A DNA stretch of 64,000 nt from the NCBI GenBank assembly GCA_950295325.1, contig OX485807.1, forward strand, positions 1,614,501 through 1,678,500, read 5' to 3'. The DNA comes from Polytrichum commune. Lineage: Eukaryota; Streptophyta; Polytrichopsida; Polytrichales; Polytrichaceae. Shown piece by piece: positions 1-21,598 of this stretch; within the stretch, counting starts at the first letter, position 1, and the number at the start of each line of letters is the position of its first letter. The position numbers were made by a program, and so were the translations under genes. The notes beneath the pieces were generated by a model. It was given only the letters and a program-made list of their open reading frames with translations, was not told where the DNA came from and did no database searches.

Positions 1-1454
1 AATGTTACTATCCATGATTCATATTCTAGAGTAGGGTCGGACGGTGGGGGGATAGTAGTGTGGGAGTGATTTATTATTTCTTGGGTGATAATAGGATGAT
101 TACGCCAATTTGGGTTGTTTTTTACGATGTAGATTACCTTGCGGATGAGGTGGTAGGTAGATAGGTTTAGTTTCCAATGTTTTTGGGATTTCTTTGGAAG
201 GTATCCTCCTTGTTTGGCTATATGAGTTGGTAGATTGGGTATCGGTGGTGCGGTACATGTTTCTGGGACGGTGGTGGTGATGTGGTCGGTGAGTGTGTTA
301 AATGAGGTACAAGCTAGTTGTCATTGTTCACTTGTTAATTGATTATTTTGTAAGAGTTGGATGAGCTCCTCTATTTGGTTTGAGTGTGTTTCAAAGAATT
401 TTGTGCGAAATTCTTCAAGTTTTTCCTTTGGTATTGGATTAAGTATTCTAGGAGGTGGCTCGGAGGTTGTAGTTGGAATTTTGGCAATGAGTGTGTTTAG
501 GGGGATTTGTAGATGTATGGGTAGGTGGTCGGAGTTTAAATTAATATTTTGGTTGGTAGTTGAGGTGTATAGGTTATTGTTGGGTGTTTTGATGAAGAAG
601 CCGTCAATTAAGCTATTTTGTGTGTAGTTGTTTTTTCTTTGTCTTGAAAATTTTGTGTTTGTCGGGACATATGATAAGTCAAGGCCGGTTGTGAATGTTC
701 GCCAAAGATAGTCCTCTGTTTGGGGTGGTGTGGTTTGTTGGTCGTTTTGCCTACCAATTAAGGCGATGTCTCTATTGAAGTCTCCACATAAGATGTATGT
801 ATGATTAGGGTGAAGGTTTATTTGATTAGTTATGGTATTTTGTATGGTGGGGATGAGGGGGATGTCTTTCTTATGTGAGGGCATGTATAAGTTGATTAGA
901 AGCCAAGGTTGTAAAGGTTGGTTTGCTATGCGAGTGATTTGGAGGAATGGGGATATATCGGCGGGGGTAGGGATTTTAGATAGATTACTTGGAAATGCAT
1001 GTGTTTTATGAATTAGTAGAAGTAGGCCACCTCTATAGCCTCTGTAGGTCATTCTTTGGCGTGTGACCCTGGTGATGTTATGTGTGTTGTTAAAGAAAAG
1101 TTTGTATTGTGGGAATAATCTTTGGATGTGGTTGGTGGATTTAGTGGCGGATAACTTAGTTTCTTGTATGGCGATAATTGAGGGTGGTCTTTGGGGATTA
1201 GTAATTAGGTCTTGTAGGCATGGCATGGCGGTGTTAAGAGAGGAGGCATTCCATGTGATAGCATATGATTTTTGGCTTGTTAGCGGGGGTAGGCTAGTCG
1301 ATAGGGGTAAGTTTTGTGTCGGAGGGGGGTTAGGGTGAGTGTATTCATTTATGGGTTCTTTGTATCTTAATGCCTCTAGTAGTAATTGTCGTGGTAAATA
1401 TGGGAATGCTTCACTCATGTTTTGAATGGTAATTGTGTCGGGATTTAAATGCAT
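1..1454 (-). pseudogene. LINE element 1 ORF2: APE-type endonuclease domain and start of the RT linker (interrupted, partial)
   Basis: Endonuclease/exonuclease/phosphatase (APE-like) domain that would nick target DNA for target-primed reverse transcription. Counting from the methionine at 1454, the family's catalytic and structural residues are all visible: Asn69 (TWNAS), Glu98 (IQETK), Tyr190 (INLYMPS), Asp225 and Asn227 (GDFN), Asp284 (LIDGF) and Ser308-Asp309-His310 (NSDHLP). A TGA at 321-323 stops the frame after residue 377. The same frame then stays open to base 1, with text such as KHWKL and NPNWRNH, so the TGA looks like one mutation (CGA to TGA is possible). Upstream of 1454 the frame also stays open to about 1560, where a run of six C on the sense strand shifts it against the preceding segment. 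RT itself is off the window. Confidence 0.88.
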
Positions 1455-1543
1455 ATAGTCATATAATTTTTTGTGTATGGTGTTAGGTGGTGTTATGATG
1501 TCTTTATAGATGTTGCGGAATTGTGTGTACGGGTGCGGGGTGT

Positions 1544-1903
1544 TTATATGTCTTTCGGGGGGTTTGTTAGTGTTGTCATTGTTTCTAGTAGTTGGGATGT
1601 CCAGTCTTGAGGTGGTGGTAGGTGTAGGTATGTGTTACATATTTCTATGGATGGGCTAATCATTACAATTAATGCGTAAATGATTCGTGGAGGGGGGTGG
1701 TTTATGTGTGTTTGTATGTATTGGTATAAATAGGGGAACGTGAGTATTGTTTGTGTATGTAGTGGGTGTGAGGCTTGAAGAAAGGGTTGAAATGTTTTGG
1801 CTAGGTGTTGGTATTCGGGTTGGAATTTGATTGTACTCGGTATAAAGTATGTCGTTTGTCTTCTTTTGTGGTCCGTGGGGTGTGTGTTTAGGAGGTCGGG
1901 CAT
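1544..1903 (-). pseudogene. LINE element 1 ORF2 segment just after the second 2A-like motif
   Basis: A 119-codon segment in the same frame as the upstream ORF2 segment that starts at 2782. It begins with the Met that directly follows the second NPGP motif (MPDLLNTHPT). It contains basic and Pro/Ile-rich sequence but no domain I recognise. It ends at a TAA only because the frame slips by one base in a C6 run around 1555-1560. In the alternative frame the protein runs on into the endonuclease segment. I therefore read it as the spacer between the 2A site and the APE domain, broken by a one-base indel, not as a separate gene. Confidence 0.6.
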
Positions 1904-1927
1904 AGGTCCGGGGTTGGGTTGGATATC
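1904..1927 (-). other. Second 2A-like ribosome-skipping motif (DIQPNPGP)
   Basis: Sense codons gat-atc-caa-ccc-aac-ccc-gga-cct encode DIQPNPGP, preceded by the hydrophobic stretch LLLILQCG and followed immediately by Met. The 2A consensus is D-(V/I)-E-x-N-P-G-P after a hydrophobic/Gly segment. Here Glu is replaced by Gln. Variants at this position are known in 2A-like sequences of LINEs, but activity of this one is untested. It lies in the same frame as the first motif and 94 bases downstream of it, with one TAA (1955-1957) between them. Confidence 0.7.
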
Positions 1928-1954
1928 ACCGCATTGTAATATGAGTAGTAATTG

Positions 1955-2782
1955 TTAATTGTGACATTTAATTGTTATGCTTGATGGTGGTTTGGGGAGG
2001 TCATGTAGGGTGTGTGGGGGGGGCCCCGGGTTGGTTTCAATGTCCCCACTAAGAGCTATAAGTGTGGTGTTATTCCATATGTAGTATTTTATAAGTTTAA
2101 TTTTGGGAGTTTTTAGGTGTGTGTGTGTGAGGTAGAGGATGTTACTAATGTGTATGGTGGGTTGAATGGGTGGGATGGGGGTTGGGATTGTTTGGAATAT
2201 GTGTTGGGTGGGATGTTGTGTATCATGTGCGTGGTTGGAGTGTGGGGAGGTGATTGGGGATTTGTGATTATGTTGATGTTTTAATGTTAGAATTGGGGTG
2301 AAGTTTTGTGTGTTATGTGGGTAGTGGAGGTTATGATATGGTGGGGTGGTGGAGGTGTTGTAATTTGTTTGATATGAGAGGCTTAGGTATGTTGGAGGTA
2401 ATGTTGTTTTATTTAGCGTGAGGTTGTGGTGGTGGGCGTATGTTAGCGAAAGGGTGAGGATAGTGAGTAAGATGTAAGCTTGGGATAGGGTGGGTAGGGT
2501 AGATTTGTGAGGTGGGGTGAGTGTGTTATGTGTTTGTATGGTGTTTGTTAGGATGATGTGGTGTGGGTTTGTATAACTTTGGGTATATGGGTCTTTGTAT
2601 TTATTGGTGTTGGGGTGGTATATTGTTGTTGTTTGATTAAGTCTAAGGTTGTTGGTGTATGCGGTAAGTGTACTAATTGTGGTAAGTGCAAGTGTATGCA
2701 TTTTATTTAGAATAGAGAGATAAGTAGTACAAAGTATGTGTATGAGTATCGTCCATGTGTATGCTATGGCTATTCTATTCAT
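1955..2782 (-). CDS. LINE element 1 ORF2 N-terminal segment with hydrophobic stretches and a 2A motif
   Basis: 275 codons, starting at an ATG that overlaps the ORF1 stop (ATGAATAG, 2775-2782). The protein is Thr/His/Asn/Pro-rich. It has a hydrophobic stretch at the N-terminus (about residues 5-24) and another near 101-120, which could act as signal or membrane segments. Residues 247-254 are a canonical 2A core, DIETNPGP. A TAA follows 21 codons later. Beyond it the same frame continues through a second 2A-like motif into the pol leader, so the TAA is probably a mutation in one long ORF2. If the first 2A works, this segment would be released from the endonuclease-RT polyprotein during translation. 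The function of the released piece is unknown. Confidence 0.7.
   Translation of the reverse strand: MNRIAIAYTWTILIHILCTTYLSILNKMHTLALTTISTLTAYTNNLRLNQTTTIYHPNTNKYKDPYTQSYTNPHHIILTNTIQTHNTLTPPHKSTLPTLSQAYILLTILTLSLTYAHHHNLTLNKTTLPPTYLSLSYQTNYNTSTTPPYHNLHYPHNTQNFTPILTLKHQHNHKSPITSPHSNHAHDTQHPTQHIFQTIPTPIPPIQPTIHISNILYLTHTHLKTPKIKLIKYYIWNNTTLIALSGDIETNPGPPPHTLHDLPKPPSSITIKCHN
2021..2044 (-). other. 2A ribosome-skipping motif (DIETNPGP)
   Basis: Sense codons gac-att-gaa-acc-aac-ccg-ggg-ccc encode DIETNPGP exactly, preceded by TTLIALSG. This fits the 2A rule (D-V/I-E-x-N-P-G, skip before the last Pro) and the usual upstream hydrophobic/Ser-Gly context. 2A-like sequences are known upstream of the endonuclease domain in some non-LTR retrotransposons, for example trypanosome L1Tc and sea urchin elements. 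The position here is the same. The next codon is also Pro. Confidence 0.85.
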
Positions 2783-3947
2783 GAAGAGGATATTGACCTT
2801 TGTGAAGACTTGATGGGGAGTTTCTAAAGTGAGCGCTATGGAAACCCGGTGGAGCTTGTTGTGGCATGGTGGTGTCCCCCGCGTTTGTGGTGGTGAGGGA
2901 GGTGCTTGGTGCGGATGGAAGTCTTGCGACGGTGGCGTGAGGGGGGTCCGGCGAGGTGGTGGCCAATGTTTGCATTATGTTGTGCATGCGGTTGTTCGAT
3001 TGTTGGAACTCCATAGCCATGGCACTCATGATGGTGTGTATGTTGGTCGCATGAGTCTTGAGGGTGTCCGTGGAAGCCTCAATGCGTAAGTCCGTATTGA
3101 GGTTAATGTTGTGTGTGAGTATGGTAAGTTTGTCGTCCATTGTCTCGGCAAGTTCCTTCATCGCCTTTGTGAAGAGCTTCTCCGAGACTAGCGGGGATGA
3201 TGCGGCGGTGTTGTGCATTGCTTGGGCCTTTTGAGCTATGACCTCACGTACGGGGGCTTGTGCAAGCCGGATGGCGGTTTGATTTGGTGCGGTGCCATCT
3301 ATACTCCCTTTGTGTGGCACGAAGTCTACTCGCCTTCCTAGTACGTATGCGGACTTATGTAACCACTCCGTGTACACCGCCGCATTGAGACATTGAATAT
3401 GACACCAACCGGCTTGCCGGTCATCGTCCATGTTGGTCTTGTGTCCAAAAGTGACGCCGGTGATGTTCTCCTCTCCAAAGAGCCTCTTGAGTGTTGTGGT
3501 AATCGTGGATTGGGACTCGCGTTGGGGTAGGTTGTTAGCCACAAGCGTGGTACTTATCCTCAACTCCGAAGGATTGCTCATGTCTTTATCCCTTGTGATG
3601 CTTACCTTGAGTTTTTCGGCATGGAAAGTAAGTCCGTTGGTAAGGATGTCGTTCTTTGACTCCTCGGTGGTGAGTGTAATGAAGGCGAAGTCCCTCTCCG
3701 TTTCCGACTTGGTAAGGGAAAGGATTTCCACTTCACGCCCGTCGTAGTAGAAATCCTTCATGAGGCTCCGGAGTATATCCAATGCCGTGTGGATACGGAG
3801 GGCTTCACCCTTAAGGTGTAGCCTCATGTTCTTCGCCTTGGTAATTAGCTCAAAACCTTTCTCAACTTTCCCAATGACCCTCTCTCCATCACCCATTGTC
3901 ATAACAAAGGCTCTTTCACCACGGAGTAGTGCTAGTCTGTCTCTCAT
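2775..3947 (-). CDS. LINE element 1 ORF1, C-terminal part (possible RNA-binding domain)
   Basis: 390 codons from an ATG at 3947 to a TAG at 2775. The same frame continues upstream through a TAG at 3981 into another long segment, so this is probably the C-terminal half of one ORF1 protein. Residues about 130-215 have an alternating strand/helix pattern (ISTTLVANNLP ... GWCHIQCLN ... RRVDFVPHK) that could be an RRM-like fold, common in LINE ORF1 proteins. That assignment is tentative. A helical stretch around 240-320 could be a coiled coil, and the C-terminus is Pro/Ser/Thr-rich. The last codons overlap the ORF2 ATG by 8 bases, suggesting coupled reinitiation or frameshifting for ORF2 synthesis. 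Confidence 0.65.
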   Translation of the reverse strand: MRDRLALLRGERAFVMTMGDGERVIGKVEKGFELITKAKNMRLHLKGEALRIHTALDILRSLMKDFYYDGREVEILSLTKSETERDFAFITLTTEESKNDILTNGLTFHAEKLKVSITRDKDMSNPSELRISTTLVANNLPQRESQSTITTTLKRLFGEENITGVTFGHKTNMDDDRQAGWCHIQCLNAAVYTEWLHKSAYVLGRRVDFVPHKGSIDGTAPNQTAIRLAQAPVREVIAQKAQAMHNTAASSPLVSEKLFTKAMKELAETMDDKLTILTHNINLNTDLRIEASTDTLKTHATNIHTIMSAMAMEFQQSNNRMHNIMQTLATTSPDPPHATVARLPSAPSTSLTTTNAGDTTMPQQAPPGFHSAHFRNSPSSLHKGQYPLHE

Positions 3948-3980
3948 TGGGAATTGAAGGTGAATTTTGACAAACCCACT

Positions 3981-4898
3981 CTAATTCCTTGTAACCGTAT
4001 TGATGCCGATGTCAATCGGGTTGGAGTAGGTGGTACCTAGTGGCATATTCATGCTCCGGAGTCGCTCCAAGCATGCAATTTTGACTTCTCTCCTATTGAG
4101 TTTCTTGTATTCACCGTCGAAGCGAATGGTGACGTGGAATCCCTCGGTGAGGCCCGTGTCTTGTGATATCTTCTCGTACATCGGAATTTGCGTGAAGTGG
4201 AGGTGTTGTCCGGTTACCGCATCCGGGCGCTCGTTGGGGTAGAGGAATTGCTTTGTTCGCGGGAATGCTCTTCGTAGTGAGCGAAATTCTTGTATCTCAT
4301 TGGTGGGCGTGCCAATTTTGACAAACTCTTCATCGGTGCACGTCTCCTTCAATTCTTTCTTTCCACGTAGTATGGCTAGTGTTTCATGCATTTGAAACCC
4401 GAGCCACATGTGTCCGGTCATGTCGATGCTTAGGGAGGCCGATCTCCTAGCACGCGCACTTGGTGGTGTTGGTGTGGGTTTGTGTGAGACGTCGGGCGTG
4501 GAGGTGGCGGTGTAATCGTCGGCCTTCCTTCGTTTGGTGGATTGGCTCTCCAAGATATCTTCAATTCGAGGGTTGCGGTATTGGAGTGTTGGAGGCGTGT
4601 TCTCGGTGTGGTGTGAGGAATTGTTGGGTAGTGCATGGGCGGCTTGTTGTGAGGTGCGCTCGTATGTCAATTGAAGTGAGCTCCCTCCTCGTTCCGGGGA
4701 CACGTTTTCAAGCTGCGCGTCCATGTCAAGATCTTCCATGTCGAACTCATGAGGTTGATGTGGATGCGGGGCCTGATTTGAGAGCTGGGACGTGAGGGGA
4801 GCTGGCGGCTGTGATAGGACTTGCTGCCGAAACTCCATGTACTGGTCGTTGAGTGTGGTCGGCTGCTTGGTACCTGTAGACTGATTAGCATTTTCCAT
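3981..4898 (-). CDS. LINE element 1 ORF1, middle part
   Basis: 305 codons from an ATG at 4898 (MENANQSTGT) to a TAG at 3981, in frame with the segments on both sides. The first half is Gln/Pro/Ser-rich with an acidic patch (EFDMEDLDMD, residues 51-60) and a short basic nuclear-signal-like run (KRRK, 122-125). The second half is a more globular, charged region (about 160-305). No family is recognisable by eye. The single TAG before the next segment could have come from CAG (Gln) by cytosine deamination. It is treated as part of ORF1 because of the shared frame and the lack of any other interruption over 11 codons before the next Met. Confidence 0.55.
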   Translation of the reverse strand: MENANQSTGTKQPTTLNDQYMEFRQQVLSQPPAPLTSQLSNQAPHPHQPHEFDMEDLDMDAQLENVSPERGGSSLQLTYERTSQQAAHALPNNSSHHTENTPPTLQYRNPRIEDILESQSTKRRKADDYTATSTPDVSHKPTPTPPSARARRSASLSIDMTGHMWLGFQMHETLAILRGKKELKETCTDEEFVKIGTPTNEIQEFRSLRRAFPRTKQFLYPNERPDAVTGQHLHFTQIPMYEKISQDTGLTEGFHVTIRFDGEYKKLNRREVKIACLERLRSMNMPLGTTYSNPIDIGINTVTRN

Positions 4899-4952
4899 GA
4901 GAATAGAGCGTTGGAGCCGGGGATTACCTTCTATATCAGTGATGCTACGGTG

Positions 4953-7571
4953 CTAAGCGTCAGATGTGCCGGGGTGATGTGGGAGTTTATTGATGCAGTG
5001 TCGGGGGCTGGGATTGTGGGTGTTGCATTGGGGAAGTCGTGGTTGTGGATGCTGATGTGGAGATGCTCCTGGGCGGATTGCTTGCTGTTGGGTTCTGGCT
5101 TTCGGTCTGGGTTGGTGTTCTCTGTGCTGTAGGTTGATTGTGGGAGCACTGCTGCTAAGGACTCGTTGGGGTAGCCGTTCGCTAATTGTTATCGTTGGTG
5201 CTGTGCAGGTGTTGTTTCTCGATTGGTGTGCGGCAGGGTGGAATGTAGGCCTAATCTTCAGCTGCGACTTCGGAGATTCTGGTTGCAGAAGATCGGGGCT
5301 AATGGGGCCGCTGTGGTGAGTTGCCGGGTGGAGCTGGGCGTGTGCTGTGTTGGGGCTGCTGGGAAGAGTTGTAGCTGAATTTGCCGAATGGAGCTGATCG
5401 CAGTGGGTATGGTGTGTATGGTGAGGACCTGTGGGGAGCGCTGAGCTGTGGGTTGAGTCGGCGGTCTCCTGGGAGCGTGGTTCTTGAGCGATGGTGGATG
5501 TGCTAGGATGTGAGGGGGGGAGGTGCTGTTGACTACAGTGGGGGAGGACTATTGAGAGGAGAATGGGAGTGGAGTGAAGAAGAGGCTGTTGATTATGGCT
5601 AAAGAAGAGGAATGTGCGGGATGGGAGTGAGGATTCCTGATGTGGTAATCCGTGAGAGGTGTGGAGTGAGGTAGAGGAGGTGAGGGTGGAGTGTTGATAG
5701 TTGTGTTGGAATGAGAGTGAGAGAGGGGTGTCGAATGTCTCCTTGTTGCACTTGTTAAGTAGTGGGGTGTGGAGGCTATTGTGGCTTGTTGGGGTGTATT
5801 TTCCGTTGTTGGCTGACAATGTGGGAGGATGGATCCGATTGTGGCGCTTTGTTTTTTGGGGGTGGTCTGGGTGGGAGTGGGATTTGTGTAAGAGCTTGGG
5901 TTGGGTGGGTATGAGCTGTGGGGGTTGTTTATGGGGAGTGATGAGGTGGGGGGTTGTCATTTTGTGTTTGGTGGGCACTGTTTTGAGAGGTTGTGATCTG
6001 GGTTGTGTGTTTTGTGTGGTGGTTATAGTGGGGTATGTGTGTGTGTCATGTTTAATGTGGGTGTTGTGTGTCCTGGGGTGTGTGTCAGCGGTTTGTTTTG
6101 GGCTTATTCTGGGGGTGTAGAAGGATAATTTGGTTTTTGGAGTTGGGTGATGGCTATGGGCGTATGTTTTGTGGGCGTTTGTGTAGGTTCTTCGGTGCGC
6201 TGATGGGTGTGTGGCGGCGGTCGGCCTGGGAAAATGTATTTGGTTCCGGGGGTGGGTGGGCGTGTCTGGGAGCAGCGCTATTCGCGTTGGGTTGCTAGTG
6301 TTGCTTTGGGGTGTAGCTAGTTTGGGCTGTGGGTACAGGTGTGCGGCAGTTTGATTTTTGGGTAGCCGTTTGAGTGTGGCATTTTTACTTTTAATGGGCG
6401 TGAGTGGGTTTTCTGTGGGGGGGTGGATGCATGTGTGGTTGATGTGTGTGAGGTTATGTATGGGTGGATGATTGTGTGCTAGGGGAGAAGTAGTTGGTGT
6501 TGGGGTGAGTTGGGGGCTTGTGTGGGTGGGTGTCATTTCGGTAGAGTGTTGCGTGGGCTTGGGTGGATTTGCTGTGTGTTCTGCAACTGTGGGTGGCCGT
6601 TTGAATTCGTGTGGGTGTGTGAATTTCTCCCAGGTAAGCCGCTGTCTGTGCATTTTGATTGGTTTTATTGTGGTATTTGTGAATGAAGTGTTGCTAGCAT
6701 GTAGCTGGGGGTAGTGGGTTTGTGTGAATACTGGGTGATCTGGAGTCAGGGTGAGGAAGTATGAGGGGTACTGAGACAGTGGGGTGGTGTGCGAAGGTTT
6801 GTGGTAGTTGGTTGTGTTGTGAAGGGTGGCGCTGGGTGAGTAGGTGGTGCTTGTCGAGGAGGTACTGGTGGGATGCGAGGGGGGCCGGAGTTGGGCTGCG
6901 GTGTCGGTATTGTTTCGGCCCGCGTTCGTTTGCAGCTGCTGGGTAGGGTGAGTTTTGGAGGGGCTTTCGTGGGAGCATTGGTATGCTTCTCGGGAGTGTT
7001 CGAATTTCTCCGAGGTAAATTTTTGTTTGAGTATATTGGGTGATCTTTGTGTGGCATTTGCTTGTGAGATGGGGGGTGAGGGTGTCTTCGAGGTGGGGGG
7101 CAGTGTTGGTGCAGGTGCTGGGCTTCGTGTATGTCGGGGTGTGGATGCGGGGAGTGTGTGAGTGATGCGGGGTGGCTGTTTGGGTATGGGTTTTTCTGTT
7201 TGTGAGTGAGTCAGTCTTTGTGGGGGTAAGGATGTCTGCGAGTGAGAGGGCTCTGTTTGTGTTGGCGAGGAGCTTCGGGTACTTCGGAGTGCTGGTGCGG
7301 GGAGCGTGTGAGATTTCCTTGGCGGCCGTATGTGTGCGTGTATTTTTGTTTGTGGCTGTATCGATCTATGGGGATGTGAGGGTGATTTCGAATTGGGGGG
7401 CAGTGTGTGTGTGTTAACGTGTGAAGTAGATGTGTTGTGTGTATTTTGTTGTTTTGTGTGGACTGGCCCGGGCTTTGATGGGTTAGCTGGGGGGGGCGGA
7501 TCGACTAGATTTTGGGAGGAAGCACGCGTCTGTGCTTGCGGTGGGCTGCCGTATTTGTCGACATGCCGCAA
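4953..7571 (-). CDS. LINE element 1 leader frame: Pro/Thr/Ser/His-rich low-complexity protein
   Basis: An uninterrupted 872-codon frame, in register with ORF1 downstream and ending at a TAG (4953-4955). The protein is extremely rich in Pro, Thr, Ser, His and Gln. It contains imperfect repeats beginning THTLP or SHTLP (starting near residues 55, 88 and 138) and two related charged patches (KFTSEKFEH and RLTWEKFTH). The sense strand is C/A-rich, which lowers stop frequency. However, the other frames on this strand hold no open run longer than about 100 codons here, so the open frame is probably under coding constraint. It could be an N-terminal extension of ORF1 or a separate protein. No function is assigned. 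Confidence 0.5.
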   Translation of the reverse strand: MRHVDKYGSPPQAQTRASSQNLVDPPPPANPSKPGPVHTKQQNTHNTSTSHVNTHTLPPNSKSPSHPHRSIQPQTKIHAHIRPPRKSHTLPAPALRSTRSSSPTQTEPSHSQTSLPPQRLTHSQTEKPIPKQPPRITHTLPASTPRHTRSPAPAPTLPPTSKTPSPPISQANATQRSPNILKQKFTSEKFEHSREAYQCSHESPSKTHPTQQLQTNAGRNNTDTAAQLRPPSHPTSTSSTSTTYSPSATLHNTTNYHKPSHTTPLSQYPSYFLTLTPDHPVFTQTHYPQLHASNTSFTNTTIKPIKMHRQRLTWEKFTHPHEFKRPPTVAEHTANPPKPTQHSTEMTPTHTSPQLTPTPTTSPLAHNHPPIHNLTHINHTCIHPPTENPLTPIKSKNATLKRLPKNQTAAHLYPQPKLATPQSNTSNPTRIALLPDTPTHPRNQIHFPRPTAATHPSAHRRTYTNAHKTYAHSHHPTPKTKLSFYTPRISPKQTADTHPRTHNTHIKHDTHTYPTITTTQNTQPRSQPLKTVPTKHKMTTPHLITPHKQPPQLIPTQPKLLHKSHSHPDHPQKTKRHNRIHPPTLSANNGKYTPTSHNSLHTPLLNKCNKETFDTPLSLSFQHNYQHSTLTSSTSLHTSHGLPHQESSLPSRTFLFFSHNQQPLLHSTPILLSIVLPHCSQQHLPPSHPSTSTIAQEPRSQETADSTHSSALPTGPHHTHHTHCDQLHSANSATTLPSSPNTAHAQLHPATHHSGPISPDLLQPESPKSQLKIRPTFHPAAHQSRNNTCTAPTITISERLPQRVLSSSAPTINLQHREHQPRPKARTQQQAIRPGASPHQHPQPRLPQCNTHNPSPRHCINKLPHHPGTSDA

Positions 7572-7775
7572 GGGAGGAGTCGTCCAGTGGTGAATCTTGG
7601 TAAGTGTGCCTGTGTGGATCTTGGTGTGTGCAATGTCATTGTGTGTAGATCTATGTATGTGTAGGCACTGATGGTGGATGATATCGCTTTGTATGAGTGT
7701 TGTGTGAGTGTATGGCCGAGTGGGTTGTGTGTATAGACAGTATACAAGAAATGAGGTTAGGGTTTCGATGTACCT

Positions 7776-8372
7776 CTAGTGGGTTGGAGCAGTATTCGCT
7801 AAGTGGGTGTTGGCTGTGTGTGGGGGTTGCAGGTGGGTGTTGCTGCTCGAAGGCGGCGGCGGGTTGATGAGGGGGCCCCTTCGGAAGTGCCATCTGCACT
7901 CTGCTCCTGCTCCGGTGTTGTTGGAGAGTGGCTGTGGCGCTTGTGATATGGGTGGTGGAGGGCGTCGGTGTAGATCTCGGCTAGTGCAGGGTCTGGAGGT
8001 GTGTAGGAAGGTAGTTTTAGGGTTGGACTTGTAGAAGTGCAGTACCTGAGGGGGGCTGCAGAGTGTGTATAACACTATTACAATGATAAGAAAACGTTTT
8101 CGAGAACTACTCTGTTGTTGCCTGCTGGATCTGGTGTCTATGGTATTGTTCGTTGCCGCTAGGGTTCGGTGTTGTTGTTGCTGAGACTCCTGTTTGTTGC
8201 TCCATCTTCGGTGGATGCCATTGCTTTCTTGATGGTGCGTTGTTGTGGAGGATGTTGTTTGTGTCGACCATCTGGTTTCTGGGTTGGGAGTCTCTTCGTT
8301 GTTGTGCGGCCAGGCGGGGATCGGTGCGGCGGCAGCGTCCATGGCTCTCGGTGTTGGTCCCATTTCTTCCAT
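7776..8372 (-). CDS. LINE element 1 first reading frame at the 5' end
   Basis: 198 codons from an ATG at 8372, essentially the first base of the element, to a TAG at 7776. The frame is the same as the 872-codon frame and ORF1 below it, and it is open between 7776 and 7571. The region 8372-2775 is thus one frame of about 1866 codons broken only by three TAG codons. The protein is Gln/Ser/Thr/Pro-rich with one hydrophobic run (FLIIVIVLYTL, about residues 94-104) after a basic RKR. No domain is recognised. It may be the true N-terminus of a giant ORF1, or leader sequence that happens to be open. Confidence 0.4.
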   Translation of the reverse strand: MEEMGPTPRAMDAAAAPIPAWPHNNEETPNPETRWSTQTTSSTTTHHQESNGIHRRWSNKQESQQQQHRTLAATNNTIDTRSSRQQQSSSRKRFLIIVIVLYTLCSPPQVLHFYKSNPKTTFLHTSRPCTSRDLHRRPPPPISQAPQPLSNNTGAGAECRWHFRRGPLINPPPPSSSNTHLQPPHTANTHLANTAPTH

Positions 8373-8893
8373 CTTCTAGAGAGATAAGACTAAGGCCCCC
8401 TACTTTCTTGGGCATCATGCAATCATCCCAACTTACACGAGCTCTAGTTGTGCTCTCCGATCCAGACCAAAGATAGTTGCATAATAAAGCTTTAATCCTC
8501 CCAAGAATTTTCTTTGACCCAGCCCATACCGTAATAAAATACCAAAGGATGGCATTAACACTTGGTTTACAATGAGAGTGTGTCCTGCAAGTGACAAGTT
8601 GGTGGAGCTCTTGAGTTTGCCCTTAACCCTATTTATCAAAAATTGGTCGATGTCCAACAATTCCAAATTGAGACCAAAAGGCGTGCCTAGAAGTTTTGAT
8701 AAGTCTCGAGTAGCAACTCACTTCCATTGGTATTTCCCCACCCATCTCGGTGGTCGTCCTCAGCTGTACCAATACGCCATACTCTTATGCCAATTAATTT
8801 CGAGTCCAGAGGTCTTACCAAACTTGTGGAAAATTCCTACAAGGTGATTACAAGAATGCACATTGTCAAGAATCAACAAGAGATTTTGTAACC
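8373..8893 (-). pseudogene. Relic of an older plant L1-like LINE: RT C-terminal region
   Basis: The minus strand encodes recognisable plant L1-type pol text downstream of the catalytic RT core: SGLEINWHKS, LLGTPFGLNL, KLSSAG-like LSLAGHTLIVNQVL, and PKKVGGLSLISLED near 8375-8415. Two in-frame stops lie upstream (in the Y-S-*-G-R and W-K-* stretches near 8740-8770) and one after RRAQLELV (8433). The frame is cut at about 8373 by the 5' end of LINE element 1. This makes the relic the older sequence and the likely insertion target. Only about 170 codons are left. It is a different family from elements 1-3. Confidence 0.8.
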
Positions 8894-10316: not shown

Positions 10317-10328
10317 GGTTACTTTCAA
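10317..10328. repeat. Target-site duplication, left copy (LINE element 2)
   Basis: GGTTACTTTCAA, repeated exactly at 14926-14937. The two copies flank the 3' tail and the 5' truncation point of LINE element 2, as expected for target-primed reverse transcription. Confidence 0.88.
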
Positions 10329-10349
10329 GAAGAAGAAAAGAAAAATTAC

Positions 10350-10368
10350 GCCCGTACATTGTACCGGC
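10350..10368 (-). other. Terminal 3' UTR hairpin of LINE element 2
   Basis: Inverted repeat GCCCGTAC-ATT-GTACCGGC with one mismatch in the stem, about 20 bases before the 3' end of the element. LINE RTs often recognise a 3' stem-loop. Element 3 has a comparable hairpin right before its tail. Confidence 0.5.
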
Positions 10369-10397
10369 ATGAATGTGAGCCCGTTATCCAAATGTTT

Positions 10398-10415
10398 AAC
10401 ACGGCGAGCCGTGTT
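10398..10415 (-). other. Second 3' UTR hairpin of LINE element 2
   Basis: Perfect 8-bp inverted repeat AACACGGC-GA-GCCGTGTT with a 2-base centre, in the 3' UTR about 70 bases from the element end. It may be part of the RT recognition structure. The role is inferred only from position. Confidence 0.45.
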
Positions 10416-10482
10416 GTTACATAAGGAGTTATGCCTCTCTGTGGGAGGTGGGCTCTGTTAGTTTGTAATGTTCGGTCCTTTT

Positions 10483-12021
10483 TTAGGGTGGTGCAACTGT
10501 ATTTTGTTTATTGTCTAGTTTTCTTTTGTTAAGTACAAGGTATGTTAAGTATTTAATGGCATTTTGGTGTATGTTTTTCATGAGAGTTTTGACGCTAGTT
10601 TTTGGTATTTTGAGGTCTGTTAGCCTTGTGATGGATTGTTCGTGTATGGCGCCTCTTACGCCGGCTGTGATAGTTATGAGGGGGTTTGTTTTCCAGCCTT
10701 TGCTCCGTATAGCATTGATTAGTGGGTCGTATTTTGTATGTTTTTGTGTGATTGCTTGTTCCGGGAATCTGTCATGGCAATATGTGAATTCAATAAATTG
10801 TATTGTGTGAGCGGGTGAGGGTATAAGGGGTGTTGAGGCTTGGTTTGGGGCTCCTAGTATACAAAGAATGTCTGGGCGTAGTCTTGCTTGGCATTGACAC
10901 TGTGCTTGTGGGCACGTGCATTCTAGGAGCCATTCTGGGACCGTTTGTTGTTGGTTTGTGTTATTGAGGTTTCCTGCATTTGTTAATGTGTAGTATATTG
11001 TGTGTTTGTTGGCTTGTAGTGTTTGAGTGATGAAGTGAACCGCGTTGTTGTGGCAGGCTATTCTTAGTCCTTTTAGATAGGGATGTTCGCACATTGATAG
11101 TAGATGGGGCCATGTGTCTCTATCATTTTTGTAGCATAGTGTGCAATTGGGGTTTCGGAATTTGAGGGGCCAGAAAATATTTTTTCTGTGGTTACCCATA
11201 TATTGGGCATATCTGAATTTTAGTGTTTGGGTGATTTGAGCGTCTGTTATTTTTGTGTTTTTCCAAAAGTGGTTGGAGAGTTTTTGATTTATATGGTCGT
11301 TAGTTAACCATCTTTCTACATATGGGAATATGTGTTGGGCATGTGTTTTTTCTCGGTTGGTGTGTTCTTTTAGTATGAATTTGTGAATATTTCTGATAGC
11401 TCCATCGTGGGTGGCGGTTGGGCAACTTGCTAGCCAGTAAGGTGTGGCGTGTGCCAGGTGGATGTGTGGGGTGTTGGTTGGTTTTTCTTGGAGGTTTCCT
11501 TCGTTGGCTAATATGTCCGCTTTTTCGTTTCCCACAATTCCTGTGTGGGCTCGTACTTTGTGAATGTGGATGGAGTGTGGAGTCCAATAGATTTGGTGTA
11601 TTATGGCTGCTATGAGGAGTTTATCGGGGTGGTGATGTTGCGAGGTTGGGCGTTGTATATGGTTGTTAATTAAGTATATACTGTTAAGGCTATCTGTGAA
11701 TATGTGTGTGTCCATTTGGGTAGTTTGTATGGTTTTGACCACTATGAGTATGGCGTTGAGTTCTGCTCTGAGTATGTTTTGGTATCCCAGTAATCTCTCT
11801 GAAATTTGGATGTCTTGGTGGGGACTATATACTCCGGAGCCGGCCGTGTTGCCTATTATTTGGTCTTCCGAGTTTTTTGATGGGGGGATGAATGACCCGT
11901 CGGTGTACATGCATTGTTGTGGTTGGTATTTAGGGGGGTGTTGGGTGTAGTATTTATTTGGTAAGGCATTGGAGTGGTGGTTGTTGTTATGGGAGTATCT
12001 ATTTTGGGAGCATTTTTCCAT
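10483..12021 (-). pseudogene. LINE element 2 pol C-terminus: RNase H, CCHC knuckle and RLE-like nuclease
   Basis: 512 codons. RNase H has all four acidic residues: Asp41 (YTDGS), Glu87 (RAELN), Asp110 (FTDSLN) and Asp169 (NEKAD). A zinc knuckle follows at Cys293, Cys296, His306, Cys311 (CX2CX9HX4C). After a Cys-rich turn (CTCPQAQCQCQ) comes a block with the signature of R2-type restriction-like endonucleases: Arg-Pro-Asp (382-384), Glu411 (IEFTY), Lys427, then Lys430-Tyr431 (KY.PL), followed by a GW and a TAGVRGA segment. Element 3 repeats every one of these positions at identical spacing. The usual R2 spacing between the two acids is shorter, so there is an insertion here. The RNase H would degrade the RNA template; the RLE could cut target DNA. 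The frame opens only after a shift upstream (12021-12080). Confidence 0.85.
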
Positions 12022-12573
12022 GTATTTGAGAATTTGATATGGTAGTTTGGTGTGGTGGGTTTGATGGGGTAGGTGTCAATGTGTGTGTTAGTGGTTAGTT
12101 TTAGTGCATGTGTGAGTGCGGGGGGGGGGGGGGGGGTTAGGTTCGGTGCTAAGTGTGTTTGGCTATGTATACAAATTATTGAGACTAGGGATGGTTCTTC
12201 GTAGTGGTAGTATTTTGGCCATTCGGGTGTAGGGTTGTATTGTATTGTGTGTGGGGGGATAGTGGCTTGTATGTGTATGTCTCCCTTTGTTGAGATTGGG
12301 AATTGTTGTGGCGTCCAATCATTAAGGTTGATTACGAGGATAGTTATTGTGTCTATGTCTTCCTTAGCTGCCATACGGGCCCAATGGATGGCTTCTATCG
12401 TGGTGTTGTAGTCCATGGGGTGTGTGAGGCCAATACCTTTCCATCTAGAAGATTGGGCATGACCCAAGGAGCCAAAGATTTTATCTCGGTTGTGTGGGGA
12501 GTAAAGTTGTGTGAGTTGGGTGGGGCACGTGAGGGGGGATGAATAGTATGAGTGTGTGATGTTAAGTGATTCT
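11856..12573 (-). pseudogene. LINE element 2 pol linker between RT and RNase H (frame-shifted)
   Basis: A third frame that joins the end of the RT segment to the RNase H segment. It carries the sequence IEAIHWARMAA, conserved in element 3 (QAIHWARMAA), so it is genuine pol coding sequence. The frame is open upstream into the RT region up to about 12595. A run of 17 G on the plus strand (about 12120-12136; Pro codons on the sense strand) lies inside it and is a likely hotspot for length change. Downstream of about 12080 the reading passes to the RNase H frame. The functional domain of this linker is unknown. Confidence 0.65.
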
Positions 12574-12574
12574 A

Positions 12575-14925
12575 TTAATGTCTTGGTGATTGTTGGGTGT
12601 AGTGTATGGGGAGGTTGCTTGGTAGTGTGTTTTTTGGTTTTTTCTTAGGAAGGATTGTGATGTATCTTTGTATAAGCCATAGTACTACTGTTTCGAAATT
12701 TTGGGGTGGGGGTTGGATTTCATTAATTAAGTGAGTATGGTTGTTGTGTGAGAATTGATCCCAAAGCCATTGTAGTCTTTCAATGGTAAGGGTGGCCATG
12801 TAGTTGCCTGTGGAGTTGTATATGTTGGCCTCCAAGGCTTGTATTTGGATGGTAGGTTGGGTCGTTTGTATATCTTTATCGGGGTTGCATTCGTGTATAG
12901 ATAGTGTTAGATTGGTAATTCTTCGGGGTGGGTGTACATATTTGTTGTCTTTTGTTTGTTCGTGGTTGAGAAAGTTGGCGTATGTTTGTATATTTTGTTG
13001 TTTTGTTTGGGTGTGGTGGTATTGTGTTATGCGTAGTATGTTATGTTCAAGGAGGATGTTATCCGGGTGAATTAGTTTTTCTTCTTTGCGCCATTGTTGG
13101 GAGATTCCTTGTGGTAGTTGCCATTGGCATAGGTACATTCGTTTTATGGCTTGTGCTCCCCATTTGTCTTTTCGGATGTTGGTTTTGTCATTGATTATTT
13201 TTTGGATGGGTTGCCCTAGTGTGGGTTGGGAGGTTATGGTGGGAGTGTTAGAAGCATGAGGGTCTTGAGAGAGGGACGTGGGTATTGTGACGGTGGGAGT
13301 AGGGAATAATATTGTGGCTTGTTGGAGGGCTTCTTTGATAAGTTTTGGGGCGTGTTTATATTTGGCTTGGAATTCTTGGGGGGTGAGGATGGTTTTTGTG
13401 TCGGGGTTTTGGATTTGGGGTAGTGTGGTGATGCCGTATATGTAGAGTTTATTTAAATATTTTTGGGTTTTGGTTATGGAATTTTCCGTAAGGTTGGCGT
13501 AGTTGGGATTAGTTGTCCAAGTTTGTTCTAATGGTGTCTTTTTGATGGGGAATGATCGTTTTGCGGAGGTGACATGTATTTCATATTCTCTTTCGAGGAG
13601 GAATAGCGTTCGAGCTATGGGCGATCTTATGCATGCTTGTTGCTTGAGTTTAGGTAGGTGGAGTGAGCCGCCATATTTGGCCGTAATATGTTTTGTGAGT
13701 CCTTGGTAGATGATACCTAATTGACCGGGATCGTTAAGGGCTTGGATTAATTGTTGGCCTATGCATCTTACATAGTCCGGTAGTAGGGAGGTTGCATTGA
13801 TTCCAAAGTTTCCGTGAGGGAGGTGAGTGAGGATATTGGCCGTGCTTTTGGGAATGTGACATATGTCTTTGGTTAACTTACTAATTATTTTGTCTAATTT
13901 TTTAATGTTAGGTTTGGAAAATGAGACTGCATAGTATGCGTATGCTATACGAGGTTTAATGATCGTGTTTAGGATTTTTATTTTTTGTATAAGGCTACCT
14001 GACGAGTTGGCTAACAATTGACTTTGTTGTTTGACTTTCTTTAATGTTGTTTCTTTTTGTAGATTCCATTTAAGTGATGGTGTCAATTGTATGCCTAGGT
14101 AGGTGTAAGATTCATTTTGGGTGAGGATGGAAAAATTTTGTGATTTGTACGTGATATTTTGGGATTGGATGTAGGCTTTGAAGGTATTAGGCTTGAATTT
14201 AGATTTATTAGGGCATCCGGTGATGGCGCACTTTGAGAGGTTGAGATGCATGTAGGACCATTCTGCATATTTTTGTAATTTGATGATTTGCGTTTGAATA
14301 TTTTGTATGTTGTCCATAAGGATGGCTAAGTCATCGGCGTAGGCGGTGGTGGTGCACGTGGAGTGGGAGGTATTGAAGTGGTATCTTACATCATTTTTTT
14401 CTAGCCATCTTAGGAGTGGTTCAAGAAAGATAATAAATAAATATGGACTAAGGGTGTCTCCTTGTATCGTCCCTCTACTTATTCGTATTGGGGGAGTTGT
14501 CCCGAAATGGCTTCCCGCGAAGGAGGTGGAGGAGTTTTCATATATGTTGCCCACTATTTCAACCGTGTCTAAGGGGTAGCCTAGGTCTTCCATTAGGGCG
14601 AGGAGGCGGGCGTGGTCTATGGATCCAAATGAGTTTCGGAAATCGATGTAGGTTAAGTATATGTCTTGTGTGGTAAATTTGGCATCTTCTAGGGCCGCTA
14701 TGATGGTTTGAATTTGGCGTGATGTATTTCGTTGCGGTCTAAAACCTTCTTGGCTGAAGTGGAGTAATATATGTTGCTCTCCATAGTTTGTTAGTAATGT
14801 GGTTAGTGTGTTTGTGTATAGTTTATAAATCGTGTTGGCTAATGCTATTGGTCTATAGTTGGCTAGGTGGGTCGGGTCGTTTTTTTTGTGCAGTAATATT
14901 GTTTTACTGTGTTTCCAGTGGTGCG
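12575..14925 (-). pseudogene. LINE element 2 reverse transcriptase
   Basis: Reverse transcriptase for target-primed insertion. From the 5' truncation at 14925 the frame is open and shows, in order, a P.HW.....LLHKK block, NYRPIAL (motif with YKL), QEGFRPQR, YIDFRNSFGSIDH (first catalytic Asp), RGTIQGDTLSPYLF and AYADDLAIL (YADD at 14330-14341, the catalytic pair). A long thumb and linker region follows to a TAA at 12575. All catalytic residues are intact, although the copy is truncated and frame-shifted downstream. The block order is that of LINE RTs, not LTR-element RTs. Confidence 0.92.
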
Positions 14926-14937
14926 GGTTACTTTCAA
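14926..14937. repeat. Target-site duplication, right copy (LINE element 2)
   Basis: GGTTACTTTCAA, an exact match to 10317-10328. It marks the 5' truncation point of element 2. Confidence 0.88.
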
Positions 14938-17404: not shown

Positions 17405-17582
17405 TGGGACACATGGACAGCTGAAATTTTGTGTGAACAATCCTAACTCCACAAACATGTCATCCATACAATCAAAGCCATCATTGGAGATACAAATTTT
17501 CTTTATTAACCTGTTGCATTCGGATGACATCATTTATGCGATTTTGGGGAGATTTGGGCTGAGACCTCTAGAAATTAAGCAT
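17405..17582 (+). repeat. Dispersed repeat, copy B (inverted partner at 41522-41715)
   Basis: The reverse complement of 41522-41715 aligns with it along its length: gggacacatgga, gaacaatcctaact, tcaaagccatcat and ttggggagattt recur in order. It is probably a fragment of the same kind of unidentified element. No coding potential. Confidence 0.65.
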
Positions 17583-18627
17583 TTAGCCAACCTCTTCATG
17601 AAATGTGACATGAGGTATTGAAATATGTCAAATCAAAATGGCATCATGAGGGAGATAGAGAGACTCTTATTTCTTATTTTTAAAAGTCAAGAAATATAAA
17701 ACAAATGACACCCAATGAAAGAAATTTAAAGTCTAGCATCCTCAAAGTAAGATATCTATTGGTGTTTCATGAGAGTTTATAATGTTCTTACTCGCTTTCC
17801 AAAGGCTTCACAAATTGTTCAAGTGACAACTTGGTTTGAGCTTTGGGGGAGCTCTGTAGGCATTCAAGAGTTGACGTAAATTTATTATTATTATTATTTT
17901 GTTTCAAATAGGTCAGAATTAAACCATTCATTGTACTTAAGCACAATGGAGACTACACGGTTCATTTCCAATAGTGTGGCCCACACTAATTCTATCCATT
18001 CACATTTTGGAATGAATGTGGACCACACTCATTCTAAAATGGTAACCAACAATTTTGATAGCATCAATTGTATACCGCATGAGATATTGTGGTGTGTGAA
18101 ATTAAAGTGGATTGTGAATACAATCAAAGTCTATAATCTTCTTTGGGTGTGTAATATTTTTCCCTTGAATTCCATGAGGCGTTTGGATCCAAAATGGATC
18201 ATCTTGAAAGCCCTATCTGAGAATCTAAAAATTAACAAAAGAATTGACATAGCCGCAACATACATGCAACTTTAGGACCACTTCACACATGAGCCAGAGC
18301 TGTGACCTTGTAATGGTGAGGACCCTTGACTCTCATCCAAAGGCTGTACCGTGGGTGTTGGGAAAGCCATTTTATGTAGTCACGGGCCCTCAAGTATAAT
18401 GAGAAGTGAGAATGGACCATGTTGCGGGGCCATTGCATATTTTGTCGGCGGGAAAAGAGGAGAGGATTTGGTTTAATATAATATGTTTCAAACTCTATCA
18501 AATTGAGAGAATTGCTTGGTAGTGTTTGTTTGTCATAGAATCTATTCTAGAATATGCCTTGCAATTTGTCATGAAATTTGTCCTATTGGAGAAATTTTAA
18601 AAAAAATCATGATCTCCCGGAATTTGC

Positions 18628-18658
18628 GTCAAGCCCACCTCTTGGAGGTGGGCTTGAC
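18628..18658. repeat. Perfect 14-bp foldback with 3-base loop
   Basis: GTCAAGCCCACCTC-TTG-GAGGTGGGCTTGAC. The flanks continue with weak complementarity (ctcccgg... against ...gagag). It may be the core of a small foldback element. No transcript evidence. Confidence 0.6.
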
Positions 18659-19057
18659 AAAAATTTTGAGAGACCATGAAACCTTATCCATAGTCCACCA
18701 TGTAGGACTCCATGTAGACTTTTCATTCATAAAGTCTTCTTTGGGCCTTTAGGCCTTCACCTTTGTGTGTGAAGTGAACTTGGACGGTCTCCGCCCTTTC
18801 AACGAATGAGAGCTCTTAGATTGCACTGGTCGTGGGCCTTCAGTCTTGTGTGTGAAGTGGCCCTTCGAACAATTTGAAAATTTGGAGGTGATTCTTGTTT
18901 TACAAAACAAGCTAAATTTACCAACGAATGTATAAATTTACTATTATCAAATTGAAAGAAGCAAAAGAAGGTTCTATTTCTTATTGTATTTGCCATAATG
19001 ATGGTATATATATTAAAAATTTGTTTATTACTAGTTTATCTATAACATAGGCATGAA

Positions 19058-19067
19058 GGTTATAGCA
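19058..19067. repeat. Target-site duplication, left copy (LINE element 3)
   Basis: GGTTATAGCA, repeated exactly at 21589-21598. It directly abuts the (AAT)n tail of element 3. Confidence 0.85.
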
Positions 19068-19091
19068 ATAATAATAATAATAATAACAACT

Positions 19092-19112
19092 TCGGTCTCC
19101 GAAGGAGACCGA
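19092..19112 (-). other. Terminal 3' UTR hairpin of LINE element 3
   Basis: Perfect 9-bp inverted repeat TCGGTCTCC-GAA-GGAGACCGA, immediately before the (ATT)n tail (sense strand). It is a good candidate for the RT recognition structure and parallels the hairpin near the end of element 2. Confidence 0.6.
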
Positions 19113-19218
19113 CGTGAATTAAGTGTCTGTTCGATCTACCATCAATCCCATGCCCACAGGACAAAGGTATGAAGGAGAAGATCTACTCCCCCCTTTTGAG
19201 AGTAGACACTTTAGACAT

Positions 19219-19226
19219 AAGAAACC
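19219..19226. repeat. 8-bp target duplication, left (MITE copy 1)
   Basis: AAGAAACC, repeated exactly at 19567-19574 on the other side of the MITE. Confidence 0.85.
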
Positions 19227-19566
19227 CTCGGGGGGGGGGGGGGTAGTCATTGGTTGGAGTAGCAATATACGTGCGAACAAATGATAGGGTATTTTAAAAA
19301 CATGGGGGCTAAAAATTATAAATGGACTTAAGAGTAATATAGGGTATAAAAAATGGCACTGGACATCTTTAAAGTACTATAGGGTATGGAATAATAGGAA
19401 ATTTGGAATTATAAGTAATGCAAGCCATTTTTCTATTAACCCAAAGTAGAAATTTACATAATGATAGCATGTGAAAAAAAAAATTGAAAGTAATACCCCC
19501 CTATAAAATAATGGTTGTTTGCACCTATATCCTTAACTTTTTAACACACTGCCCCCCCCCCCCGAG
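19227..19566 (+). mobile_element. hAT-like MITE with G-run terminal inverted repeats, copy 1
   Basis: A 340-bp non-coding element. It begins CTCGGGG... and ends ...CCCCGAG, so the termini are short inverted repeats made mostly of a homopolymer, with AGT after the run at each end. It is flanked by the 8-bp direct repeat AAGAAACC. Copy 2 (44913-45266) is the same sequence in reverse orientation, with a different perfect 8-bp repeat. 8-bp duplications are the hallmark of hAT transposition. There is no ORF, so an autonomous partner elsewhere must supply transposase. It is nested in LINE element 3. Confidence 0.88.
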
Positions 19567-19638
19567 AAGAAACCAATAATACAATCCACGACTAATATTA
19601 TACCCCGTGCCCCTTACCCCTAACTTTTAAGTTTTGAG

Positions 19639-21588
19639 TTATGGGGGGTCTGGATTGTGGGGGAGTGGTTGGTGGTTTTTAATTCTCCTTTTATGGAGGA
19701 GGATAGACATGGCATATTGTATTGCAATGGTGTTAATATTTTTGAAAGTATTTTTTATGGTGACCATGGGTATTTTGAAATTGGTCTCTAGTGCTTTCAT
19801 AGATAGGATGTGGGTAGTAGCTCTGGCACCAGTAGTGATGACCATAAGTGGTTCGATTTTCCATCCTCTGGAAGCGATACTAGCAATTAGTGGACTGTAT
19901 TTGTTATTTTTTGCTTCAATTGTTTCTGGGGAGAATCTATCATTGCAGTATGTGAATTCAATAAATTGTATGGTGAGGTTAGGGTCAATGTCGCTGGGAG
20001 GGACATTTTGATATGATAATCCCTTAACACAAAGGATATCAGGTCGAAATCTTGCGTTGCAGTGACATCTTTGTGTACTGCATGTGCAGGGGAGTAACCA
20101 GTTGGGGACTGTGTTTTCTTGGGGGTTGTTATTGAAGGTGTCCGCATTCATGAGAGTAAAACATCGAGATTTTTCGGATGAGATTAGGAGCTTCCTAATT
20201 TCCCCAACTGCTTTGTTATGTCTTTTAACTCTAAGTGAGTGTATATGTTGGTGTTTACATGTAAGTAGTACGTGTAACCATGTATCTGGTTCGTTTGAGT
20301 TGCATATGGGGCACGTAATAGTGGAATATCTTTGGTGACCGAAGAACATTTGTTTCCTCGCATTACCCATGTAGGTTCATGTGCGGAATTTAATGAGGCA
20401 TGATTTTTGTTTGTCGGTGATAGCGGGATTTGTCCAAAATTCGTTCGACAACTCTTTGTCTATGTCCACATTTTTTGTCCATTTACAAATGTTGGGGGTT
20501 TGTGTGGCCATGCTTGCTAGGTTCGTTTCCCTATCATATTTTTTAATTTGTTTTTCTAGGAATCTGACTGGGCCTTTGTCTGGAACGTCTTCCATCGAGG
20601 CCCATACGTCTTTTTGGTAATAGTAAGGGGTGGCGTGGGCGTGTTCGTATGAGTGAGTGGCAATTCTGTGTTCTAATTCTAATCCTTCTTTTGCTAGTTT
20701 ATCTGCTTTTTCATTACTGTCAATGTTGACGTGTGCTCTAACTTTGTATAGTGTGATTGGTTGTGTCCGTTTTTGAAGAATTTTTACCATGGAGGCGAGT
20801 GTGGTTTGGTCTGGGTGACTATTATGAAGTGTGGTATGTTTAATTTGTGTGTTAAGTAGGTATAATACATTTAGGCTGTCTGTGAATATGAATGCGGGTT
20901 CGTTAGGATATTGTGTGTTGATAATTCTTAATGTTTTGTGTATAGCAATCATTTCTGCTCGTAATATGTTTTGGTGTCCATGTAATCTTTTGGCGATGTT
21001 TAACCCTTTGGGGTTGTAGATACCATATCCAGCTCTTTCTCTTCTCCATTCCCCAGGGGCTATTTCTTTGGGTTTCATAAAGGAGCCATCAGTGTAGTAG
21101 CTGAATTGGGGGTGGAATTTTAGAGGTAGATTTGTCTGGTAGTTTGGGAGTTGTGGGGTGGGAATGTTATTGTATGGGAGTATATTTGGGTAGTTTGATT
21201 TAGACCATTTTTTACTAGAGTTCACGGTGATGTTTGAAGGGGTGGGTGGTGCAATTTGGGTGTGGCTTTGTAGTATTTGGAGATTATCAGCTATGTCCTT
21301 TAGTAATTTCATTTGTTCATAGGTGCCTATGTTATTGTTTTGGTGGTGGATACAAAATATTTGTAGGGTAGATGATTATTTCCTTGTAATATTGAGTTCG
21401 GGGGGTATTGTGGGTTCTTCATATGTGATCGTATCAGCGGCAAAGTGGGCAATGACGTGTGTGTCCAGGAAAGGACCTTTGTGCGGGTTAGAGTTTTTGT
21501 ACCATTCGCTATCCGGGGATATAAGTATAGTGATTGTATATGGATCATTTTGGGCCGCCATGCGAGCCCAGTGAATGGCTTGTTGTAG
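19639..21588 (-). pseudogene. LINE element 3 pol C-terminus: RNase H, CCHC knuckle and RLE-like nuclease
   Basis: One reading frame of 650 codons from the truncation point to TAA at 19639, broken only by a TAA (21376-21378) and a TGA (20377-20379). It starts with QAIHWARMAA. The RNase H acids are Asp (YYTDGSF), Glu (RAEMIA), Asp (FTDSLN) and Asp (NEKAD). The knuckle is C-P-I-C...H...C. The RLE block reads FRPDILC, IQFIEFTY, then Lys and KY.PL, with the same 27- and 16-residue spacings as in element 2. Despite many substitutions against element 2 these positions are unchanged, which points to selection on the RLE domain in the ancestral element. Confidence 0.87.
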
Positions 21589-21598
21589 GGTTATAGCA
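21589..21598. repeat. Target-site duplication, right copy (LINE element 3)
   Basis: GGTTATAGCA, an exact match to 19058-19067. It marks the 5' truncation point of element 3. Confidence 0.85.

Follow-up and report, generated by a model that had tools for sequence, protein, structure and literature searches.

Dual-endonuclease LINEs and the moss locus

Retrotransposons without long terminal repeats, or long interspersed nuclear elements (LINEs), can work with an apurinic/apyrimidinic endonuclease-like enzyme (APE) alone or with a restriction-like endonuclease (RLE) alone. The RLE-type LINE R2 inserts in rDNA and has, to our knowledge, neither APE nor RNase H. Kojima and Fujiwara reportedly described in 2005 the Dualen element of Chlamydomonas, which is said to include a cysteine protease domain. 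Published accounts unite APE and RLE with reverse transcriptase (RT) and RNase H in a single Dualen/RandI element (PMC8226300, PMC4640811, PMC3747384), assign the group to green algae as well as cryptophytes (PMC4438587, PMC8226300, PMC12747079), give (ATT)n and (CTATTT)n as 3′ tails of algal RandI (PMC3747384), and take the position of Dualen to show that APE-type LINEs arose through replacement of RLE by APE (PMC4640811). Here we analyse a 64,000-nucleotide stretch of the Polytrichum commune assembly (408 Mb), positions 1,614,501–1,678,500 of a 52.9 Mb contig, hereafter the window. It holds parts of three elements, E1, E2 and E3, all on the minus strand, which very probably, judged by their sequences, represent a multi-subfamily LINE of the dual-endonuclease (Dualen/RandI) group in a land plant. 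The second open reading frame (ORF2) encodes, in one frame and in this order, 2A-like motifs, APE, RT, a PCIF1/CAPAM-like domain, RNase H, a zinc knuckle, and an R2-type RLE. Two-endonuclease LINEs are already known from algae; as far as the open-access literature listed shows, the land-plant host and the PCIF1-like domain are new.

Both endonucleases in single elements

A sequence-only reading of the window had proposed one LINE family with two endonucleases, based on a complete set of APE catalytic residues in E1 and on RT/RNase H followed by RLE in E2 and E3. The E1 set is indeed complete: the motifs WN, QET, GDFN, ID, and NSDH, whose roles are presumably catalytic, are kept in 6/6 aligned copies. 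E2 has the domains ascribed to it; E3 has RNase H and RLE, and the domain hidden Markov model (HMM) search revealed no RT in it and, of the PCIF1-like domain, the terminal portion only. The domain E-values of the three elements are far from chance. With amino-acid identity of 52–63% between the RT pieces of E1 and E2 and 63% between the RLEs of E1 and E3, they are related subfamilies and not one family.

Within the window, as had been noted, no single copy has APE and RLE together; E1 has both once it is read beyond the edge. Left of base 1 it continues on the same strand into RT, the PCIF1-like domain, RNase H, and an RLE with the predicted [KR]PD...E...K..KY block, followed by a 3′ hairpin (read by eye) and a (TTC)n tail (in L009). 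Full copies elsewhere in the genome also span APE to RLE. Among copies found by tblastn with pieces of E1, E2, and E3, the APE-to-RLE order is colinear in 7/7 of those fetched first, E1 included. In copy L021 the frame behind APE stays open to the end, over 1,815 codons, and a further 390 open codons lie upstream, with one stop between. A genome search with the E2 RLE gave 6,909 first-look candidates, of which 131 places were scored; it supplied five more copies, and APE, RT, the PCIF1-like domain, RNase H, and RLE are present in 5/5. All domains lie in one uninterrupted frame in L023 (2,422 codons), L024 (2,372), and L025 (2,305); the frames are broken in L026, a close relative of E2 with APE upstream, and in L027. 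APE and RLE are found in the same element in 12/12 copies.

An independent genome search with APE (137 of 1,197 candidates scored) gave 138 rows, 50 of which have a same-strand RLE match 3–12 kb downstream and none an RLE upstream. These 50 rows use 49 of the 131 RLE matches, two rows being pieces of one copy. Among the best 74 of the 138 rows, 48 are linked to an RLE at near-constant spacing, with a median of 5,386 bp. The elements are numerous in the genome, with many copies of a very long element. The genome-wide totals of 1,197 APE and 6,909 RLE are mostly unscored first-look candidates and not copy numbers. The excess of RLE over APE candidates is expected if most copies are 5′-truncated, a hint only, as the queries differ.

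Identity and constraint of the domains

Pfam Exo_endo_phos and Exo_endo_phos_2 score above cut-off in the APE of E1 and L021, and a single-sequence PDB search with APE returned weak exonuclease III matches only (0.018). Pfam RVT_1 and RNase_H are matched as well, and RT and RNase H precede the RLE. For the RLE, a single-sequence PDB search gave nothing convincing, and a profile search did better: a profile of 13 rows matches the R2 proteins of solved structure (R2Tg 7e-10, R2Bm 7.1e-05). The first seven Foldseek matches of the AlphaFold2 model of the RLE (predicted local distance difference test, pLDDT, 83.7) are R2 proteins, and the zinc-knuckle Cys/His and the PD and E residues of the RLE are invariant in the 13 rows.

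Constraint was estimated roughly, as the median pairwise ratio of nonsynonymous to synonymous substitution (dN/dS, or omega; Nei-Gojobori), in two groups, E2-type and E1-type. The respective values are 0.15 and 0.14 for APE, 0.09 and 0.08 for RLE, 0.05 (6 usable pairs only, 8 saturated) and 0.09 for RT, 0.05 and 0.06 for RNase H, and 0.14 and 0.10 for the PCIF1-like domain; the range for linkers and the N-terminal portion is 0.14–0.32. By these values, neither endonuclease looks like a relic.

The PCIF1-like domain

Between RT and RNase H lies a domain that is absent from the sequence-only account and present across the dual-endonuclease clade. It matches the methyltransferase core of PCIF1/CAPAM, a cap-specific adenosine methyltransferase, in fold and sequence, and was aligned to residues 417–668 of human PCIF1. 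The FxSPL and FG[SA] blocks are kept. The catalytic NPPF motif occurs in 0/36 rows of the alignment; its position is taken by HPHT in L021, HPMD in E2, SPPF in one relative, and NPEY in four. For this reason the domain is called PCIF1-like and not a methyltransferase. It has apparently lost the residues needed for catalysis, and it differs from PCIF1/CAPAM both in the replaced NPPF and in being embedded in a LINE protein. We know of no such domain in the description of Dualen; the relatives analysed here do have it.

Relationship to known elements

The RT tree was built from 66 of 121 RT rows. The moss rows fall into a 47-row clade (support 100/99) with rows P0001–P0059 (P0057 apart), including Pleodorina P0041 and Haematococcus P0054, and together with three unnamed proteins they form a branch of their own (100/100). 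A quick tree of 93 rows agrees (Shimodaira–Hasegawa-like approximate likelihood ratio test, SH-aLRT, 97 and 100); the next relatives are P0060 and P0064, both left out of the 66-row tree. The moss RT thus groups with chlorophyte APE–RT proteins and dual-endonuclease relatives, in keeping with the dual-endonuclease reading first suggested for the window, and it does not fall into the clade containing the R2-named protein P0077. None of the 120 RT matches listed or of the 74 RNase H–RLE matches is a named land-plant relative. A Josephin-like HMM matches 11/120 relatives searched (P0041 also by Pfam). Other accessory domains seen in relatives are a PF00145 C5 DNA methylase (P0028), PF02902 with PF00856 (P0060), and, by eye, a Ulp1-like stretch (P0010).

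The moss elements share with Dualen/RandI the combination of APE and RLE with RT and RNase H, an RT in one clade with chlorophyte proteins (the proxies P0041 and P0054), and 3′ tails of short repeats, not poly(A). They differ in their land-plant host, in their own well-supported branch, and in having no Josephin-type protease. The likeness to R2 LINEs (R2Bm, R2Tg) lies in the C-terminal zinc knuckle and RLE, by profile and fold; unlike R2, the moss elements have APE, show no common target among the few sites seen, and have an RT outside the R2-named clade. APE followed by RT and the variable target-site duplications (TSDs) known from L1 recall plant L1 LINEs, from which the moss elements differ by their RLE and PCIF1-like domain. 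The open-access literature among the matches listed contains no report of Dualen/RandI in a land plant or of a PCIF1-like domain in a LINE.

Element ends, ORF1, and target sites

The elements are very long, 11.9–14.1 kb. One pair of copies, located on separate chromosomes, has 98.6% identity along 11.9 kb. Both begin at the same sharp 5′ boundary, with an ATG after a single base; in the C5 copy this ATG opens an ORF1 of 1,294 codons, the first 1,066 of which gave no Pfam match. In a second pair (97.9% over 12.9 kb) the ATG at +8 opens 382–383 codons, and E1 has an ATG at its 5′ junction that opens 198 codons; ORF1 is interrupted further on in both cases. In five full-length copies of different subfamilies (L028 from 3902 onward, L029, L018 and L020 on C5 near 2.25 and 31.6 Mb, and window 8370) an ATG lies directly at the 5′ end or no more than 8 nt from it, and the mRNA may therefore be almost leaderless. 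The start of E1 at 8369/8370 is fixed by its TSD, the last bases of which, GATG, are possibly also the first bases of the element. E1 sits inside an L1-like LINE ORF that is open across the joined empty site (window 8383–8622 on one side and, on the other, the L009 sequence to the left of the 3′ end of E1).

Two 2A-like motifs precede APE in E1, L024, and L027, namely DIETNPGP and the variants DIQPNPGP and DIHPNPGP; the 2A ribosome-skipping consensus is D[VI]ExNPGP. The NPGP motifs near the ORF2 N-terminus are 2A-like, and skipping is putative. Relative P0006 also has two NPG units. Programmed stop readthrough was rejected at two places. The ORF1 codon at 3981–3983 is TAG in E1 and TGG in 4/4 other copies compared. 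Between APE and RT (TGA then CAA), the in-frame stop is TGA in E1 and L021, and readthrough was rejected because the other 5/7 compared copies have TGG.

The 3′ end consists of a hairpin, read by eye, and behind it repeats that are (TTC)n, (ATT)-type, or TTTTC-type; E3 has the hairpin and an (ATT)n-type tail. The TSDs of E1, E2, and E3 measure 13, 12, and 10 bp. The TT within that of E2 may belong to the tail, and for E3 an AT-rich repeat of 13 bp, longer but not located at the junctions, was disregarded. The right end of E3, placed at 21588 by the sequence-only reading, agrees with the limit set by its TSD. The sense strand of 1–8370, 10329–14925, and 19068–21588 is A+C rich (about 0.57–0.82 per 300 bases). 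Low T and G content lengthens open frames, and long ORFs in the A+C-rich 5′ region were therefore not used as evidence.

Alternative explanations

That E1 is an ordinary APE LINE of L1 or I type, merely lying close to the R2-type RLE LINEs E2 and E3, would agree with the lack of any window copy holding both domains. This has next to no likelihood: it is refuted by the three uninterrupted ORFs with both endonucleases, and it also conflicts with the course of E1 itself into an RLE, with 50/138 linked rows against 0 reversed at near-constant spacing, and with the APE upstream in L026, so close to E2. It is very improbable, too, that the LINE sequence comes from an alga or another contaminant of the assembly, as the reports of Dualen/RandI from green algae and cryptophytes might suggest, since the 52.9 Mb contig also carries a Sphagnum-like pectinesterase and, beside E1, a plant DUF247 protein, and the scored APE and RLE matches are spread over contigs C1 to C7. 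One might also assume that the dual arrangement is real and that one endonuclease is active and the other a relic. APE is less constrained than RLE (omega 0.14–0.15 vs. 0.08–0.09) and about equal to the following linker, and a single endonuclease would suffice, as it does in APE-only and RLE-only LINEs. We consider this quite unlikely, because active-site motifs are kept in APE and RLE, omega is far below 1 for both in both groups, and both are kept in 16 relatives. As to the PCIF1-like domain, it could, despite its altered motif, still act as an adenosine methyltransferase and mark RNA of the element itself: it retains the fold together with the FxSPL and FG[SA] blocks, omega is 0.10–0.14, and SPPF and NPEY occur in one and four relatives, respectively. 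Such activity is unlikely, given NPPF in 0/36 rows, HPHT in L021, and HPMD in E2; in human PCIF1, replacement of NPPF by SPPG or APPA yields the usual inactivating mutants (PMC10544176).

Several observations weigh against a LINE of the dual-endonuclease group. The query that yielded the first seven copies contained APE, and selection of the next five was guided mainly by long open frames, L026 being taken as a relative of E2. There are 62 APE rows of 44–48% identity that link to none of the 131 scored RLE matches, which is expected for other subfamilies, because the RLE search scored only RLEs close to E2. Omega is rough because median dS is high, 0.4–2.0, and the constraint on APE (0.14–0.15) does not exceed that on the linker that follows (0.14–0.17). 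In the tree, which holds no Dualen-named sequence, P0041 and P0054 are proxies for Dualen that carry APE and RT, and their records end before the RLE. The algal protease, sought by the Josephin-like HMM, was found in 0/9 moss stretches, and the moss elements are therefore placed in the dual-endonuclease clade and not in Dualen sensu stricto. TSDs are present in 3/5 copies checked, since L024 and L027, nearly identical full-length copies, show none of 7 bp or more; compared with the 10–13 bp of E1–E3, this perhaps reflects two modes of second-strand cleavage.

Features and neighbouring genes

Table 1. Features of the three elements in the window (strand "." where none applies).
Feature	Position	Strand	Remarks
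E1 (dual-endonuclease LINE, ~14.1 kb), 5′ part	1–8369	-	runs ~5.77 kb beyond base 1
E1 APE endonuclease domain	414–1259	-	open frame 321–1634; HMM E 5.7e-80; Pfam PF14529/PF03372
E1 two 2A-like motifs ahead of APE	1904–2044	-	DIETNPGP (2021–2044), DIQPNPGP (1904–1927)
E1 ORF1, conserved C-terminal part	2778–4952	-	TAG at 3981–3983
E1 5′ TSD, 13 bp	8370–8382	.	second copy in L009 just after 3′ tail
E2, 5′-truncated copy of second subfamily	10329–14925	-	limits fixed by TSDs
E2 3′ TSD	10317–10328	.	
E2 zinc-knuckle region and RLE	10522–11325	-	zinc-knuckle region 11122–11325; RLE 10522–11118
E2 RNase H	11503–11910	-	HMM/Pfam
E2 PCIF1/CAPAM-like domain	12297–12898	-	split over two frames near 12630
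E2 RT	13721–14929	-	HMM limits; insertion itself ends at 14925
E2 5′ TSD	14926–14937	.	
E3, 5′-truncated copy of third subfamily	19068–21588	-	limits fixed by TSDs
E3 3′ TSD	19058–19067	.	
E3 domains		-	PCIF1-like end from 21442; RNase H 20689–21099; zinc region 20293–20538; RLE 19684–20289
E3 5′ TSD	21589–21598	.	

Other genes of the window look land-plant-like and support a land-plant host, which is probably a moss. The best named match of a pectinesterase at 36899–37939 is from Sphagnum tenellum (41%), with seed plants next, and a DUF247 plant protein is encoded left of E1 and adjoins it; these two genes back the land-plant setting that the sequence-only reading had given the elements. An ORF of 297 aa with cysteine/lysine-rich repeats (CCKCKDLKCCKC) at 49792–50685, minus strand, has no Pfam match, and an ORF at 52799–53404 with SH3_Tf2-1 and Chromo domains is probably the end of a Gypsy-type polyprotein. 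A scan of the window for RNA families gave nothing at gathering score.

Mechanism and significance

We assume that the element would move by target-primed reverse transcription. The first strand would be nicked by one endonuclease, probably APE, as the few targets seen look unspecific, and the RLE/zinc region may grip the target or cut the second strand, by analogy with R2. RNase H would clear the RNA. The PCIF1-like domain would no longer methylate and may bind RNA, perhaps at its capped 5′ end. Because the land-plant genome holds several subfamilies, some ORF2s that are open, and copies with as much as 98.6% identity, the division of integration steps between the endonucleases, and the reason why both are kept, become testable.

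The more surprising part of the element is the PCIF1-like domain, which is constrained without its catalytic motif and points to an RNA-recognition function, of a kind that we do not know from other LINEs. It is a speculative, rather doubtful proposal that the PCIF1/CAPAM domain was captured by the dual-endonuclease LINEs in general and, now without catalysis, reads the capped 5′ end of their own RNA. With ORF1 starting at or near nucleotide 2, it would serve the recognition and full copying of the intact own transcript, in land plants as in algae. If true, the reverse transcriptase protein of a LINE would contain a module that reads the cap.

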